Assembly: GCF_004362195.1 (NCBI RefSeq)
Contig: NZ_SNWG01000001.1
Coordinates: 2,418,001 to 2,482,000 of the forward strand
DNA length: 64,000 nucleotides
Source of the DNA: Microbacterium sp. BK668
GTDB lineage: Bacteria > Actinomycetota > Actinomycetes > Actinomycetales > Microbacteriaceae
Reading direction: 5' to 3'
Shown: piece by piece, positions 22,405-55,635 of the stretch
Layout of the letters: the number at the start of each line of letters is the position of its first letter
Position numbering within the stretch: the stretch's first letter is position 1
Notes under the pieces: generated by a model
Databases searched by the model: none
What the model was told of the DNA's origin: nothing
Seen by the model: the letters and a program-made list of their open reading frames with translations, nothing else
Position numbers and translations under genes: made by a program

Positions 22405-23970
22405 ATGGCTACCTTCGGCACGCTCTCCGATCGGCTCACCGAGACCTTCCGCAATCTGCGCACCAAGGGCAAGCTCACGCCCGCGGACGTCGACGGCACG
22501 GTGCGCGAGATCCGTCGCGCCCTGCTCGACGCGGACGTGGCGCTCCCCGTGGTGAAGGAGTTCACCGCGAAGGTGCGCGAGCGCGCGCTGGGCGACGAGG
22601 TCAACCGGGCGCTCAACCCCGCACAGCAGGTCGTGCAGATCGTCAACGAGGAGCTCATCGCGATCCTCGGCGGCGAGCAGCGCCGGCTTCAGTTCGCGAA
22701 GAACCCGCCGACGATCATCATGCTCGCGGGCCTGCAGGGCTCGGGCAAGACGACCTTCGCCGGCAAGCTCGCGAAGCAGCTCGAGAAGGACGGCCACACG
22801 CCGCTCCTCGTCGCGGCAGACCTCCAGCGCCCCAACGCCGTCAACCAGCTGCAGGTCGTCGCCGGTCAAGCGGGCGCCGCCGTGTACGCGCCGCAGCCCG
22901 GCAACGGCGTGGGCGATCCCGTGCAGGTGGCGCGCGACGGCGTGGACATCGCCCGGCGGCACCAGCACGACGTGGTCATCATCGACACGGCGGGCCGCCT
23001 CGGCGTCGACGCCGAGCTGATGAGGCAGGCCTCCGACATCCGCCGCGCGACGAACCCCGACGAGGTGCTCTTCGTCATCGACGCGATGATCGGCCAGGAC
23101 GCCGTCAACACGGCGAAGGCCTTCCAGGAGGGCGTCGACTTCACCGGTGTCGTGCTGTCCAAGCTCGACGGCGACGCGCGCGGCGGCGCGGCCCTCTCCG
23201 TGGCATCCGTCACCGGTCGCCCGATCATCTACGCCTCGACGGGCGAGAACCTCGACGACCTCGAGCCGTTCTATCCCGACCGGATGGCGTCGCGCATTCT
23301 CGACCTCGGCGACATCCTCACCCTCATCGAGCAGGCTCAGGCCGCGTTCGACGAGGAAGAGGCGATGAAGGTCGCCGAGAAGCTCGCGAAGGAGCAGTTC
23401 ACGCTCGAGGACTTCCTCGAGCAGCTTCAGCAGATGAAGAAGATGGGCTCGATGAAGAAGATGCTCGGGATGCTCCCGGGCATGGGCCAGATGAAGCAGC
23501 AGCTCGACGACTTCGACGAGCGCGAGATCGACCGCACCGAGGCCATCATCCGCTCCATGACGCCGGGGGAGCGCCGCAACCCGAAGGTGCTCAACGGCTC
23601 GCGCCGGCTGCGCATCGCGCGCGGATCCGGGATGACGGTCACCGACGTCAACCAGCTCGTGCAGCGCTTCGAGCAGGCGGCCAAGATGATGAAGACCGTC
23701 GCCCGCGGCGGTGTGCCGAACATCCCGGGGATGGGTCCGGTGCCCGGCGCGGGGCGCCCCGGCGCGTCGTCGAAGCGCGGCAAGCAGCAGAAGTCGCGCT
23801 CGGGCTCGCGGTCGGGAAACCCCGCCAAGCGTGCGGCCGAGAACGCCGGCATCGCGGCGGCGGGTCCGGCGGAGCCGACGGGCTCGGGCTTCGGCCTCGG
23901 CGGCGGCGGCAAGGGCGGGCCGAGCGAGGCCGACCTCGCCGAGCTGCAGAAGATGCTCGGGCGGGGCTGA
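22405..23970 (+). CDS. ffh: Signal recognition particle protein Ffh
   Basis: GTPase that binds signal sequences and SRP RNA and delivers ribosomes to FtsY. The G-domain motifs are GLQGSGKTTFAGKLAKQL near residue 111, AADLQRPNAVNQLQ, DTAGRLGVDAELM and SKLDGDARGG. The methionine-rich M domain has QQMKKMGSMKKMLGMLPGMG and the RNA-binding RIARGSGMTVTDVN. A basic, glycine-rich tail of about 70 residues makes 521 in total, common in actinobacteria. The gene for the SRP RNA was not found in this window. Confidence 0.97.
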   Translation: MATFGTLSDRLTETFRNLRTKGKLTPADVDGTVREIRRALLDADVALPVVKEFTAKVRERALGDEVNRALNPAQQVVQIVNEELIAILGGEQRRLQFAKNPPTIIMLAGLQGSGKTTFAGKLAKQLEKDGHTPLLVAADLQRPNAVNQLQVVAGQAGAAVYAPQPGNGVGDPVQVARDGVDIARRHQHDVVIIDTAGRLGVDAELMRQASDIRRATNPDEVLFVIDAMIGQDAVNTAKAFQEGVDFTGVVLSKLDGDARGGAALSVASVTGRPIIYASTGENLDDLEPFYPDRMASRILDLGDILTLIEQAQAAFDEEEAMKVAEKLAKEQFTLEDFLEQLQQMKKMGSMKKMLGMLPGMGQMKQQLDDFDEREIDRTEAIIRSMTPGERRNPKVLNGSRRLRIARGSGMTVTDVNQLVQRFEQAAKMMKTVARGGVPNIPGMGPVPGAGRPGASSKRGKQQKSRSGSRSGNPAKRAAENAGIAAAGPAEPTGSGFGLGGGGKGGPSEADLAELQKMLGRG

Positions 23971-23971
23971 C

Positions 23972-24049
23972 CCTTCACGGAGGTAGGAAATCGAGCGAAG
24001 GCAGGAAATCTGCCTCCAGTAGGGTCCTACCTTCGCGCGGATTCCTACG
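23972..24049 (+). repeat. 78-nt palindromic repeat, left copy (inverted relative to 25008-25085)
   Basis: Starts CCTTCACGGAGGTAGGAAAT. GTAGGAA (23983-23989) can pair with TTCCTAC (24042-24048), and GCGAAGG with CCTTCGC inside. Read against the reverse complement of 25008-25085 it has the same length, and 23 of the first 26 bases agree. See the DUF559 gene between the copies. Confidence 0.75.
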
Positions 24050-24154
24050 CCGGTGACCTTCGGCGTCTCCTCCACACCGCGGGCGCCCGACGGGAATGTG
24101 AACAGAGGTCGAGGCGCGGCGGCTCGTGCGCCGAAGTTCCGACAGGGTGGACGG

Positions 24155-25012
24155 ATGCCTCGCCCCGCCGACTTCGTCAGATGGCTCTCCGCCCGAGGCG
24201 GCATCGCGCACAGTTCGGAGGCCCGGACTGCCGGATTCCCGACCCAGACCATGGTGGCGGCCGTCGACGATGGACACGTGTCGCGCGTGCGCCGCTCCTG
24301 GCTCGTCCTGCCCGGCGTCGACCGGCGAATCGTTCGCGCCGTCGCCGTGGGTGGCCGCTTGAGCTGCATCAGCTCAGCCGCGCGGCGGGGGTTCTGGGTA
24401 CCCGCCCACGAGGACCTGCATGTCGCGGTCAAGCCGACAGCATCCAGAGTTCCCCGAGAGGGGGTCGTCGCACACTGGTCGCTCGGTCCCGAGCCCGTGA
24501 GCGCGCACGCCGTCGAGGACCCGCTTCTGAACGTGCTTCTCCATGTCTCAGAGTGTGTGCCGCGGGAGTCGGCGCTGACCGTCTGGGAGTCGGCGGTCCG
24601 CAAGGGCGCGGTCAGCCTCGATGCACTTCGTCGAGTCGACTGGGGGAGCTCTCGCGCTCGAGTGATCGCCGATGCATGCTCGGCGTTGAGCGACTCCGGC
24701 CTCGAGACCATTTTCCGGTCCCGGATCTCACCGTTCGGCGTGGTCATCCGCCAGCAGGTGTGGATCGACGGGCATCCGGTCGACTTCCTGATCGGCGACC
24801 GCCTCGTGGTCCAGATCGACGGCTTCGAGCACCACAGCTCGGCTGCCGACCGTCGGCGGGACATCGCCGCGGATGCTCGCCTCGTGCTTCTGGGATACAC
24901 CGTGCTGCGGTTCGACTATCAGCAGGTGATGTTCGACTGGCACGTGGTCGAGCGGACGGTGCTCGCCGCCGTCGCTCAGGGCCTTCATCGCCGGATGGGC
25001 TCACGAGCGTAG
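24155..25012 (+). CDS. DUF559 nuclease-like protein with AbiEi-like N terminus
   Basis: A 285-residue protein. The N-terminal part (about residues 5-95, FVRWLSARGGIAHSSEA to LHVAVKP) resembles the winged-helix region annotated as AbiEi-type antitoxin N-terminal. The C-terminal part is DUF559, related to Vsr-like PD-(D/E)XK nucleases: LETIFRSRIS near 183, VDFLIGDRLVVQIDGFEHH at about 209-227, and RRRDIAADARLVLLGYTVLRF. The usual second acidic residue (EVDG in many members) is Gln here (VQIDG), a substitution I believe is common in this subgroup. ATG 24155 is the likely start; the in-frame ATG 24053 lies next to the repeat. The stop codon lies inside the right-hand repeat. Third positions look less G/C-rich than in neighbours. 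Confidence 0.8.
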   Translation: MPRPADFVRWLSARGGIAHSSEARTAGFPTQTMVAAVDDGHVSRVRRSWLVLPGVDRRIVRAVAVGGRLSCISSAARRGFWVPAHEDLHVAVKPTASRVPREGVVAHWSLGPEPVSAHAVEDPLLNVLLHVSECVPRESALTVWESAVRKGAVSLDALRRVDWGSSRARVIADACSALSDSGLETIFRSRISPFGVVIRQQVWIDGHPVDFLIGDRLVVQIDGFEHHSSAADRRRDIAADARLVLLGYTVLRFDYQQVMFDWHVVERTVLAAVAQGLHRRMGSRA

Positions 25013-25085
25013 GAGAAGGCGCGGAGGTAGGACCGCGCGCAGCGGCTGCGTCCTACGCTCGCTCGAACTCCTACCTTCGTGAAGG
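25008..25085 (-). repeat. 78-nt palindromic repeat, right copy
   Basis: On the minus strand it starts CCTTCACGAAGGTAGGAGTT. GTAGGAG pairs with CTCCTAC at its ends and GTAGGAC with GTCCTAC inside, with a GCAGCcGCTGC tip. The terminal stem pair that is A-T in the left copy is G-C here, a compensatory change. It contains the stop codon of the DUF559 gene. Confidence 0.75.
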
Positions 25086-25123
25086 TCGGGGTGTCGGGAG
25101 GTCGGAGTGTCAGTGGCGGGATG

Positions 25124-26287
25124 TCAGTGGGCGAGCTGGGACAGATGCTCGCGCAGCGTCGGCCCGGCGCGGAACTCGCGGATGAGGTGGTGCACCACCT
25201 CCCGCAGGTCCCCCTCGGCCGCGTCGGCCACGAAGAGCTGCCGGGCGTACGACGCGCCCTGCGTGAGAGTGGTGTCGAGGCCCGCGAACTCGCGCGCGCA
25301 CTTGAGCTCGACGGCGATGTCGATGAGACGGTCCATCGTCTCGGCGAGGTGCTCGCGCACGGGGGCCTGCGTGCCGTCGGCGTCGACGATGATCCGCGCG
25401 TCCAGGCCGTAGCGCGCAGCGCGCCACTTGTTCTCGCGGACGAACCACGGCTGGAGCGTCGGAAGGGAGCGCCCCTCGTCGAGCTCCCGCGAGAAGTGCT
25501 CCACGAGCACCTGGACGAGCGCGGCGATGGCCGCGAGCTCGGGAAGCGTCGACATCCCGTCGCACGCGCGCACCTCGATCGTGCCCCACCTCGGTGCGGG
25601 CCGGATGTCCCACCGCACCTCCGTCGCGTCTTCCATCACGCCGGTTCGCACGAGGTCGCCGAGGTAGCCCTCGAACTCCGCCCACGACTCGAGCGGCCAC
25701 GGCAGACCCGCCGTCGGCAGCTGCTGGAAGACGAGCGAGCGGTTGGAGGCGTAGCCGGTCCGCTCGCCCGCCCAGAACGGGCTCGACGCGGACAGCGCCT
25801 GAAGATGCGGCAGGTAGACGGCCAGCGCGTTGATGATGGGGAACACCTTGTCGACGTCGTCGACGCCGACGTGCACGTGGATGCCCCAGATCATCATGTT
25901 GCGACCCCACCACTGCGTCCGCTCGATGAGCTTGTGGTACCGGGTCTTGTCGGTGATGCTCTGGTCGTACCACTGCGCGAACGGGTGGCTTCCCGCGCAC
26001 AGCAGCTCGATGCCGCGCGGATCGGTTTCCCGGCGGATGGCCGCGATCGCGTCGGCGACGTCGTCGACAGCGGCGGCGACGGTGTCGCCGATGCCGCTGG
26101 TGACCTCGACCGTGTTGGTGAGAAGCTCGCCCGTGACGGTGTAGCGCTCGAGCGCCGTCGACTCCTCGAGGGCCGGCAGGATCTCGGGTGCTCGCGGGAC
26201 GAGGTCGCCCGACGCGCCATCCGCGAGCATCAGCTCCCATTCGATCCCCACCGAGGAGCGGGCGGATGTCGCGAAAGGCACCGTCAT
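25124..26287 (-). CDS. YbdK-type carboxylate-amine ligase (glutamate-cysteine ligase family 2)
   Basis: A 387-residue ATP-dependent ligase. Family landmarks are VGIEWELMLAD at the N terminus with metal-binding glutamates, HPFAQWYDQSIT, the histidine-rich GIHVHVGVDD, EVRWDIRPAPRWGTIEVRACD and the basic ENKWRAARYGLDA. The family has weak glutamate-cysteine ligase activity in Escherichia coli. Actinobacterial members are often annotated this way, and the true substrate is unknown. ATG 26287 puts the conserved domain at residue 14; a longer frame to 26437 runs through DNA with no ribosome binding site. It converges on the DUF559 element. Confidence 0.85.
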   Translation of the reverse strand: MTVPFATSARSSVGIEWELMLADGASGDLVPRAPEILPALEESTALERYTVTGELLTNTVEVTSGIGDTVAAAVDDVADAIAAIRRETDPRGIELLCAGSHPFAQWYDQSITDKTRYHKLIERTQWWGRNMMIWGIHVHVGVDDVDKVFPIINALAVYLPHLQALSASSPFWAGERTGYASNRSLVFQQLPTAGLPWPLESWAEFEGYLGDLVRTGVMEDATEVRWDIRPAPRWGTIEVRACDGMSTLPELAAIAALVQVLVEHFSRELDEGRSLPTLQPWFVRENKWRAARYGLDARIIVDADGTQAPVREHLAETMDRLIDIAVELKCAREFAGLDTTLTQGASYARQLFVADAAEGDLREVVHHLIREFRAGPTLREHLSQLAH

Positions 26288-54979: not shown

Positions 54980-55635
54980 CGGTCGTCGAGCCGCGGCTGA
55001 CCCTGGAACGCCGGCTGCTCAAGGAGTGGCCGGTCGTCATCGCGTGCGACGAGGTGGGCCGGGGCGCCCTGGCGGGCCCGGTCGCGGTCGGTGCGAGCGT
55101 CGTCACTCCCGCCGACGCCCGCCGCCGCATCCCGGAGGGCCTGCGCGACTCGAAGCTCGTTCCCGAGCCCCGGCGCGCAGACGTCGCCGCGCGCGCCGCC
55201 AGGTGGGTCTCGGTCAGCGCGGTCGGATGGGCGAGCAGCGTCGAGATCGACGAGATCGGAATCATGCGCGCCCTCGGCCTCGCGACGATCCGAGCCCTCG
55301 CGGACCTGCGCGCACACGGGGTCGTGCCCGAGGAGGCGATCGTCATCCTCGACGGCAACTACGACTACATCACGCCTGCCGGCGCGACCGGTCTGACCGT
55401 CCGGCCGGTCATCAAGGCCGACCGCGACTGCGCGAGTGCGGCCGCGGCATCCGTCATCGCGAAAGTCGCCCGGGACGCGCTGATGACCGGGCTGCACGAC
55501 GAGCTGCCGGCGTACAACTGGATGAGCAACAAGGGTTATGCCAGCCCCGATCACCGCGAGGCGATCCGCGCGCACGGCATCAGCCGGCACCACCGCGCGT
55601 CGTGGTCGATCGCCGACGCGCCGACTCTCTTCTGA
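54976..55635 (+). CDS. rnhB: Ribonuclease HII
   Basis: Cuts RNA in RNA-DNA hybrids and removes single ribonucleotides. The first catalytic Asp-Glu pair is in VIACDEVGRGALAGPVAVG. The third and fourth acidic sites are in IVILDGNYDYI and IKADRDCASAAAASVIAKV. The C terminus has NKGYASPDHREAI and HGISRHHRASW. The product has 219 residues. It is translationally coupled to lepB and convergent with the DUF2469 gene, a common actinobacterial neighbour. Confidence 0.95.
   Translation: MTVVEPRLTLERRLLKEWPVVIACDEVGRGALAGPVAVGASVVTPADARRRIPEGLRDSKLVPEPRRADVAARAARWVSVSAVGWASSVEIDEIGIMRALGLATIRALADLRAHGVVPEEAIVILDGNYDYITPAGATGLTVRPVIKADRDCASAAAASVIAKVARDALMTGLHDELPAYNWMSNKGYASPDHREAIRAHGISRHHRASWSIADAPTLF

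Follow-up and report, generated by a model that had tools for sequence, protein, structure and literature searches.

We analysed a 64,000-nt stretch of the Microbacterium sp. BK668 genome (the window), in which a DUF559 gene, bracketed by two nested palindromes (Table 1), has ffh (SRP54) on one side and a gene for a GCS2-family ligase on the other, as assigned by a Pfam scan of the locus. The gene probably starts at ATG 24155, and the homologue record P0001 has the same length (285 aa). Its Pfam matches consist of DUF559 above the cut-off and MTES_1575 below its cut-off, with nothing else. As the original prediction from the DNA alone had stated, the stop codon falls inside the right repeat, and codon use is less biased than in the neighbours (GC3 is 0.82 here, 0.95 in ffh and 0.92 in the ligase gene of the GCS2 family). 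The stop codon is the TAG at 25010-25012, within the repeat's first GTAGGA. The same genome encodes eight DUF559 proteins of this type, the other seven being 42-52% identical to the window protein.

Table 1. Coordinates of the DUF559 locus and of a gene-less palindrome in the window; residue numbers of the DUF559 protein, here and below, follow a 319-aa numbering.
Feature	Position	Strand	Evidence or remark
DUF559 gene, 285 aa; predicted AbiEi-like DNA-binding part and Vsr/EDxHD-type nuclease domain	24155..25012	+	Pfam DUF559, E 8.6e-09
Winged-helix domain	24155..24316	+	Residues 35-88
Middle, AbiEi-C-terminal-like domain	24317..24682	+	AbiEi fold match; divergence tracks repeat word
Strand-loop-strand, residues 128-142	24434..24478	+	Has residues covarying with word bases -3, -1 and +2; held-out check weak
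Nuclease domain	24686..24997	+	E218, D244, Q254, D256, H261
Left nested palindrome	23972..24056	.	E 4.6e-06 in window at 23977-24054, from a profile model trained without the left repeat
Left-repeat sites	23983-23988, 24001-24006, 24025-24030, 24043-24048	+, +, -, -	24001-24006 is GCAGGA, one mismatch
Right nested palindrome	25001..25085	.	Holds the gene's stop codon; profile match 25003-25080, E 4.8e-07
Right-repeat sites	25009-25014, 25027-25032, 25051-25056, 25069-25074	+, +, -, -	
Gene-less palindrome, TCAGGA word, like flanks of paralogue L005	55645..55723	.	E 6e-07 (R1) and 1.3e-05 (R2) in window

Both window repeats contain four GTAGGA-type sites, two forward and then two reversed, with a spacing of 18-24-18, an order absent from the original prediction. 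Its description of inverted copies that can each fold back was borne out: 23 of 26 bases agree by eye between the sequence from 23972 onward and the reverse complement from 25085 down, and each copy is a palindrome in its own right (78% over 32 nt and 73% over 33 nt). Between the copies, the outer arms (23972-24006 and 25051-25085) are 83% complementary over 35 nt and the inner arms (24023-24056 and 25001-25034) 79% over 34 nt, and single-strand DNA folding of four repeat strands gave z scores between -3.0 and -4.0. Exact GTAGGA words occur 14 times in the window against 6.82 expected, a count reached in 0 of 100 shuffles, and 7 of the 14 sit within the two repeats. The exact pattern GTAGGA...TCCTAC was discarded as evidence by itself, with 5 forward matches against 16 for its backwards control. 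BLAST with the 78-nt repeat returned from its own genome only the repeat itself and one weak 28-nt match; because words and spacers diverge, profile models were required.

The symmetry of these elements fits a site in double-stranded DNA. Arm covariation reached 0.414 against 0.173 for shuffled repeats (58 repeats) and 0.523 against 0.185 (43 repeats), and fell to the shuffled level or lower when the partner was slid by one column. G-T mismatches across the arms were no commoner than A-C mismatches (114 versus 138 and 82 versus 93), as a double-stranded dyad site would have it, and Rfam gave nothing at gathering score in 23500-25500; on these two grounds an RNA hairpin is disfavoured. The symmetry reaches about 11 nt beyond the outer words and then ends. 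Arms within one element are more alike (0.59) than arms of other same-word elements (0.49), which suggests that symmetry is maintained palindrome by palindrome.

Flanking palindromes across the DUF559 family

The suggestion that other DUF559 paralogues might carry the same flanks failed in its literal form, GTAGGA pairs being found at 0 of 7 own paralogues, and held in a broader one, since most have an equivalent repeat with another word. A repeat finder located other palindromes on both sides of several own paralogues, and a four-site detector (word, word, reversed word, reversed word) showed that most of the 16 own flanks share this geometry and differ in the word. The weak own flanks were the left side of L009, which scored below its shuffles, and the left side of L010, which equalled the best of six shuffles. 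The L009 flanks (1015-1406 and 2441-2544) consist of tandemly repeated units of 36 nt (GGGGAGGAG type) and 13 nt, the left one having no one clear palindrome.

Across Microbacterium, 92 of 98 distinct DUF559 loci have a four-site palindrome on both sides with a joint score above the shuffled maximum of 290, and 91 of the 98 exceed the far-flank maximum of 292. With gene-less copies elsewhere carrying matching words (see below), this indicates that the link between repeat and gene, drawn originally from one locus, is not coincidental. The 98 loci were obtained by merging seven pairs at 99% DNA identity, L127 being dropped as a duplicate; before merging, 97 of 105 Microbacterium loci exceeded 292 (the best of 104 far-flank controls) and 99 exceeded 290 (the best shuffled score). 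Six of the 98 loci (L082, L090, L092, L111, L132 and L143) gave no signal above 290. The 29 loci from named genomes comprise 28 from Microbacterium and one from a Microbacteriaceae bacterium. A further 23 loci included 14 above 292 and nine that were not, and eight of these nine share no more than 37% identity with the protein of the window. In an order-wide sample, all four further Microbacterium loci and both loci of another Microbacteriaceae genus passed, and the four-site signal was missing in 20 of 21 loci from other families of the order, L291 being the sole carrier. Other flank geometries may exist at DUF559 genes of those families: the types seen are 21-nt direct repeats, 21-nt inverted repeats and the CGATCT four-site signal of L291, with repeats at 1291-1311 and 2343-2363 in L297 and at 1322-1342 and 2480-2500 in L290.

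Geometry is shared more widely than wording. The GG-to-GG inner distance is 22 or 23 on 103 of 118 sides in the 18-spaced class and on 54 of 64 sides in the 19-spaced class, eight passing loci that lack a GG anchor being left out, and the words vary by gene (ACAGGC, ATCAGG, GTCGGA, TGAGGA, CTCGCAG, TGAAGGA and others). At some loci a third or even a fourth palindrome lies next to the gene, as at L006 (2408-2508 and 2648-2748), L115, L124, L125, L128, L130 and L133. Broken or truncated relatives of the DUF559 gene were seen at L065/L140 (G073), L141 and L143; L065/L140 and L141 lie at the ffh site and retain weak GTAGG-type flanks (joint scores 306-310), and L143 gave no signal (270).

The repeat word and the AbiEi-like domain

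In a structural model of the DUF559 protein (pLDDT 92.5), residues 1-176 of the model match AbiEi and the nuclease part matches Vsr/EDxHD folds, which upholds the proposed relation to Vsr-like nucleases. The protein is predicted to join an AbiEi-type DNA-binding part to a nuclease of Vsr/EDxHD type, with Q-x-D at the second acidic motif. In the middle domain, C105, H123, H141 and C168 (window 24365-24556) are conserved in 98, 98, 97 and 98 of 98 proteins, respectively, and form a possible metal site. The alignment of 98 proteins excluded L065, L140, L141, L143, L115, L123 and L139.

Differences between repeat words track the middle AbiEi-like domain only, and neither the winged helix nor the nuclease domain. 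The partial correlation of word distance with middle-domain divergence was 0.406, a value matched in 0 of 300 permutations (70 loci, not de-duplicated). The winged helix was rejected as the word reader, with a partial correlation of 0.042 and 52 of 300 permutations as high. The original prediction had cast the nuclease as a passenger in place of a known transposase; it does occupy that place, and the covariation of the word with the protein's own middle domain argues against a mere passenger.

Within Microbacterium, single residues follow single word bases (de-duplicated code table, 67 loci), residues 133 and 142 having the highest z in the within-group residue-base test for bases -3 and +2. 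Other columns also reached 0 of 200 in this test, namely 266, 221, 46, 222 and 152 for base -3 and 130, 99, 231, 39 and 188 for base +2, all with z below that of 133 and 142. Base -2 had no outstanding loop residue, and for base -1 residue 132 ranked only fourth. On held-out loci, mostly more distant genes, the -3 rule was right in one of two cases and the +2 rule in six of ten; these poor results lowered our estimate of the odds for a residue-base code.

Gene-less copies and possible turnover of sites

Covariance models, one per spacing class, were trained partly on flanks of the paralogues L004, L005, L006, L007 and L010, with the window repeats outside the training sets. In the BK668 genome they matched 72 places at E ≤ 1, 14 of which flank genes and 58 of which are gene-less. 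The 56 gene-less copies used (two places had no four-site frame) fit the genome's own eight genes with a mean of 8.23. When 5000 random sets of eight were drawn from 78 foreign genes, the mean was 5.69 (sd 0.92) and the largest value 7.65. The word matrix of L009 was mis-anchored, crediting its GGAGGA copies to L003, and the models did not detect the L009 flanks and one L008 flank. By a heuristic gene call, 28 of the 56 copies lie between convergent genes, 9 between tandem and 1 between divergent genes, with 15 in an open frame and 3 unresolved. For the gene-less palindrome of the window, the best own gene is L005, and the ORF just before it ends at 55635.

The same correspondence appears between genomes. 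Exact TGAAGGA pairs number 18 in G065, where L073 is the cognate gene, and 17, 8 and 6 in G092, G083 and G033, respectively, with 0-2 in each of the remaining 95 of 99 genomes and 3 matches overall for the control pattern. A TGAAGGA-flanked gene in G092 was predicted from the pair count and then found (L262); in G083 and G033, DUF559 matches at E ≤ 1e-10 include no such cognate gene. CTCGCAG pairs occur together with a cognate gene in G006 (24), G067 (11) and G078 (3), and with none among DUF559 matches at E ≤ 1e-10 in G093 (16), G089 (7), G095 (5) and G034 (4); this pattern matches 46 of 99 genomes and is frequent in its control, making only high counts meaningful. Within a genome, many of the words are therefore accompanied by their cognate gene, and some words are orphans. 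CGAGG(A/G) palindromes in the BK668 genome (L214, L188 and L186; G000:C1:875697, 919442 and 2677308) are of the latter kind, none of its eight genes having this word, which is present at gene L096 of G070. Two tandem arrays, L218 (G000:C1:7560-7852) and L223 (G000:C3:8679-9135), hold three gene-less palindromes each, with spacer identity of 0.89-1.0, and are the sole near-identical gene-less copies seen.

The original prediction likened the unit to a REP-type or MITE-like element. The REP-like arrangement stands, with flanked genes and dispersed copies; MITE-like transposition is so far unsupported. The ends of 217 repeats show no significant direct repeat indicative of target-site duplication, the best z (3.97 among thousands of offsets tried) being dismissed as it fell at unrelated offsets. 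Spacers of same-word copies have drifted to 0.49 identity, against 0.41 between words, with near-identity confined to tandem arrays. Tandem arrays aside, the repeats show neither a significant target-site duplication nor the near-identical copies of a MITE or insertion sequence.

Empty sites between ffh and the ligase gene, which had been proposed as a check, were found in part. Nine of 30 fetched loci were directly readable: five junctions are clean (13-62 nt), two have a palindrome and no gene, and two bear the gene, in one of them split over two frames and so broken. The ffh-site palindrome of G028 is closest to the repeats of L117 and of its own gene L046 (local scores 47 and 44), L046 being fifth in rank by word matrix; for the gene-less ffh-site palindrome of G031, the own gene L055 was not the best fit (rank 28). 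At the place orthologous to the L130 palindrome, 24 of 24 relatives with both flanks found had no R1 match, several of their intergenic stretches being of very different lengths. Among protein pairs at least 60% identical, both neighbours are shared in 147 of 258, indicating that the genes often stay put. Plasmids yielded one distant hit (32%) and phages none. The gene-repeat unit is at most putatively mobile.

A candidate self-recognition unit and comparable systems

The flanking, the geometry, the gene-specific words, the dispersed matching copies and the covariation of word and middle domain are read from sequence, and from them we infer binding, cleavage and any spreading. We consider it probable that gene and repeats form a REP-like self-recognition unit, and likely that the protein specifically recognizes its repeats; nuclease-driven spreading or homing is a tentative proposal that we hold with some doubt. 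The AbiEi-like part would bind its own word as inverted site pairs, two inverted pairs making one nested palindrome, with the gene standing between two such palindromes and gene-less copies elsewhere, often near gene ends. AbiEi proteins are described in the accessible part of one study as binding inverted repeats, one of them four (PMC7319586), and the available text on I-Bth0305I describes dimerization on a target of nearly 60 bp (PMC3943268). The nuclease domain would probably act on bound palindromes or close to them. If a gene-less palindrome were broken, repair could draw on a repeat-gene-repeat copy, its palindromes supplying the homology (ectopic homing), and recombination between the two flanks could return a locus to one palindrome.

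The main rival to ectopic homing is a host network, in which the palindromes are long-lived sites (insulators, terminator-like or chromosome-organizing) bound by a DUF559 protein in the service of the host, the flanks also regulating the gene and nothing spreading at present. Drifted spacers beside conserved sites, the placement of half of the gene-less copies (28 of 56, by heuristic gene call) between convergent genes, the frequent persistence of DUF559 genes at one locus and their near absence from plasmids and phages all agree with it. We nevertheless judge it unlikely, as words differ widely among species and even among the eight genes of one genome, all 24 relatives with both flanks found lack an R1 match where the L130 palindrome would be expected, the ffh-ligase junction may be clean, single-palindrome or gene-bearing, and a regulator needs no conserved nuclease site.

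An autoregulated toxin-like or defence nuclease, whose gene is controlled through AbiEi-type operators, which targets invaders and whose scattered copies are a by-product, is very improbable. AbiEi autoregulation through inverted repeats, as the seen portion of PMC7319586 describes it, and weak PADLOC matches to AbiEi and homing-endonuclease entries (E 0.0064 to 0.039) favour such a nuclease, but an equal palindrome lies 3' of the stop codon, the neighbours at the window locus are ffh and the GCS2-family gene with no AbiEii partner, and 56 copies are gene-less. It is scarcely credible that ordinary REP/RAYT palindromes or terminators lie near DUF559 genes by chance, or that the repeats are an RNA partner of the nuclease: although palindromes close to 3' ends look like REPs and GTAG is named as the tag of one REP superfamily in the part of PMC3733652 consulted, palindromes stand at 92 of 98 loci, GTAG occurs in few words, the word covaries with the protein, and the mismatch counts and the Rfam result given above speak against an RNA.

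The self-recognition unit that we favour is most like REPtrons (REP-RAYT, TnpA-REP), which, as far as the available text of PMC8266576 goes, likewise have a palindrome-bordered gene, dispersed cognates, several families per genome and a gene that is not clearly mobile. Cognate palindromes are present both beside the gene and dispersed in the same genome; the GTAG (or CGTC) end tag is no general feature, GTAG being confined to GTAGG-type words (L003, L050 and relatives). Whereas the REPtron enzyme is an HUH Y1 protein, the window gene combines DUF559 with an AbiEi-like part and has no HUH match by Pfam or fold; REPtron repeats are short tagged hairpins, and those described here are nested four-site palindromes of about 82 bp, of a double-stranded DNA type, with a word specific to each gene and seen in Microbacteriaceae, with one possible case outside. 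Because enzyme and tag differ, the unit is not a REPtron, despite working alike.

Nor is it an AbiE operon. Residues 1-176 of the model share the fold of AbiEi antitoxins, which bind inverted-repeat pairs according to the same partial source (PMC7319586), but here that fold is fused to a nuclease, palindromes lie on both sides and are dispersed, and the window locus has no adjacent AbiEii nucleotidyltransferase gene of the type IV toxin-antitoxin kind. Unlike EDxHD homing endonucleases (I-Bth0305I) and Vsr, the gene is freestanding between palindromes, with no intron or intein seen, has an AbiEi-like reader rather than NUMOD modules, and has Q-x-D at the second acidic motif. The MTES_1575 REase/DUF559 family has been described as a Vsr-type REase, with repeats unmentioned in the portion of that paper available (PMC3710099). 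Titles and abstract openings, mostly from outside the subscription literature and including papers that name DUF559, contained no description of such a gene-repeat system.

It is doubtful, yet conceivable, that these loci represent a novel class of gene-repeat systems, selfish or domesticated, in which about eight AbiEi-derived readers per genome, joined to homing-type nucleases and each with a word of its own, home between gene-less palindromes, and in which eight flanking sites, scattered copies and a short protein loop change together via a partly readable residue-base code. To our knowledge, HUH is the one enzyme superfamily known to accompany REP families. The present loci suggest that REP-like logic recurs with unrelated proteins in actinobacteria, pointing to convergence, and offer a second, independent system for studying the reasons behind the existence and persistence of these repeats. 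The covariation of the word with the AbiEi-like domain opens recognition of DNA by the AbiEi fold to direct test in ordinary binding assays, and would assign a function to DUF559, a widespread domain of unknown function.
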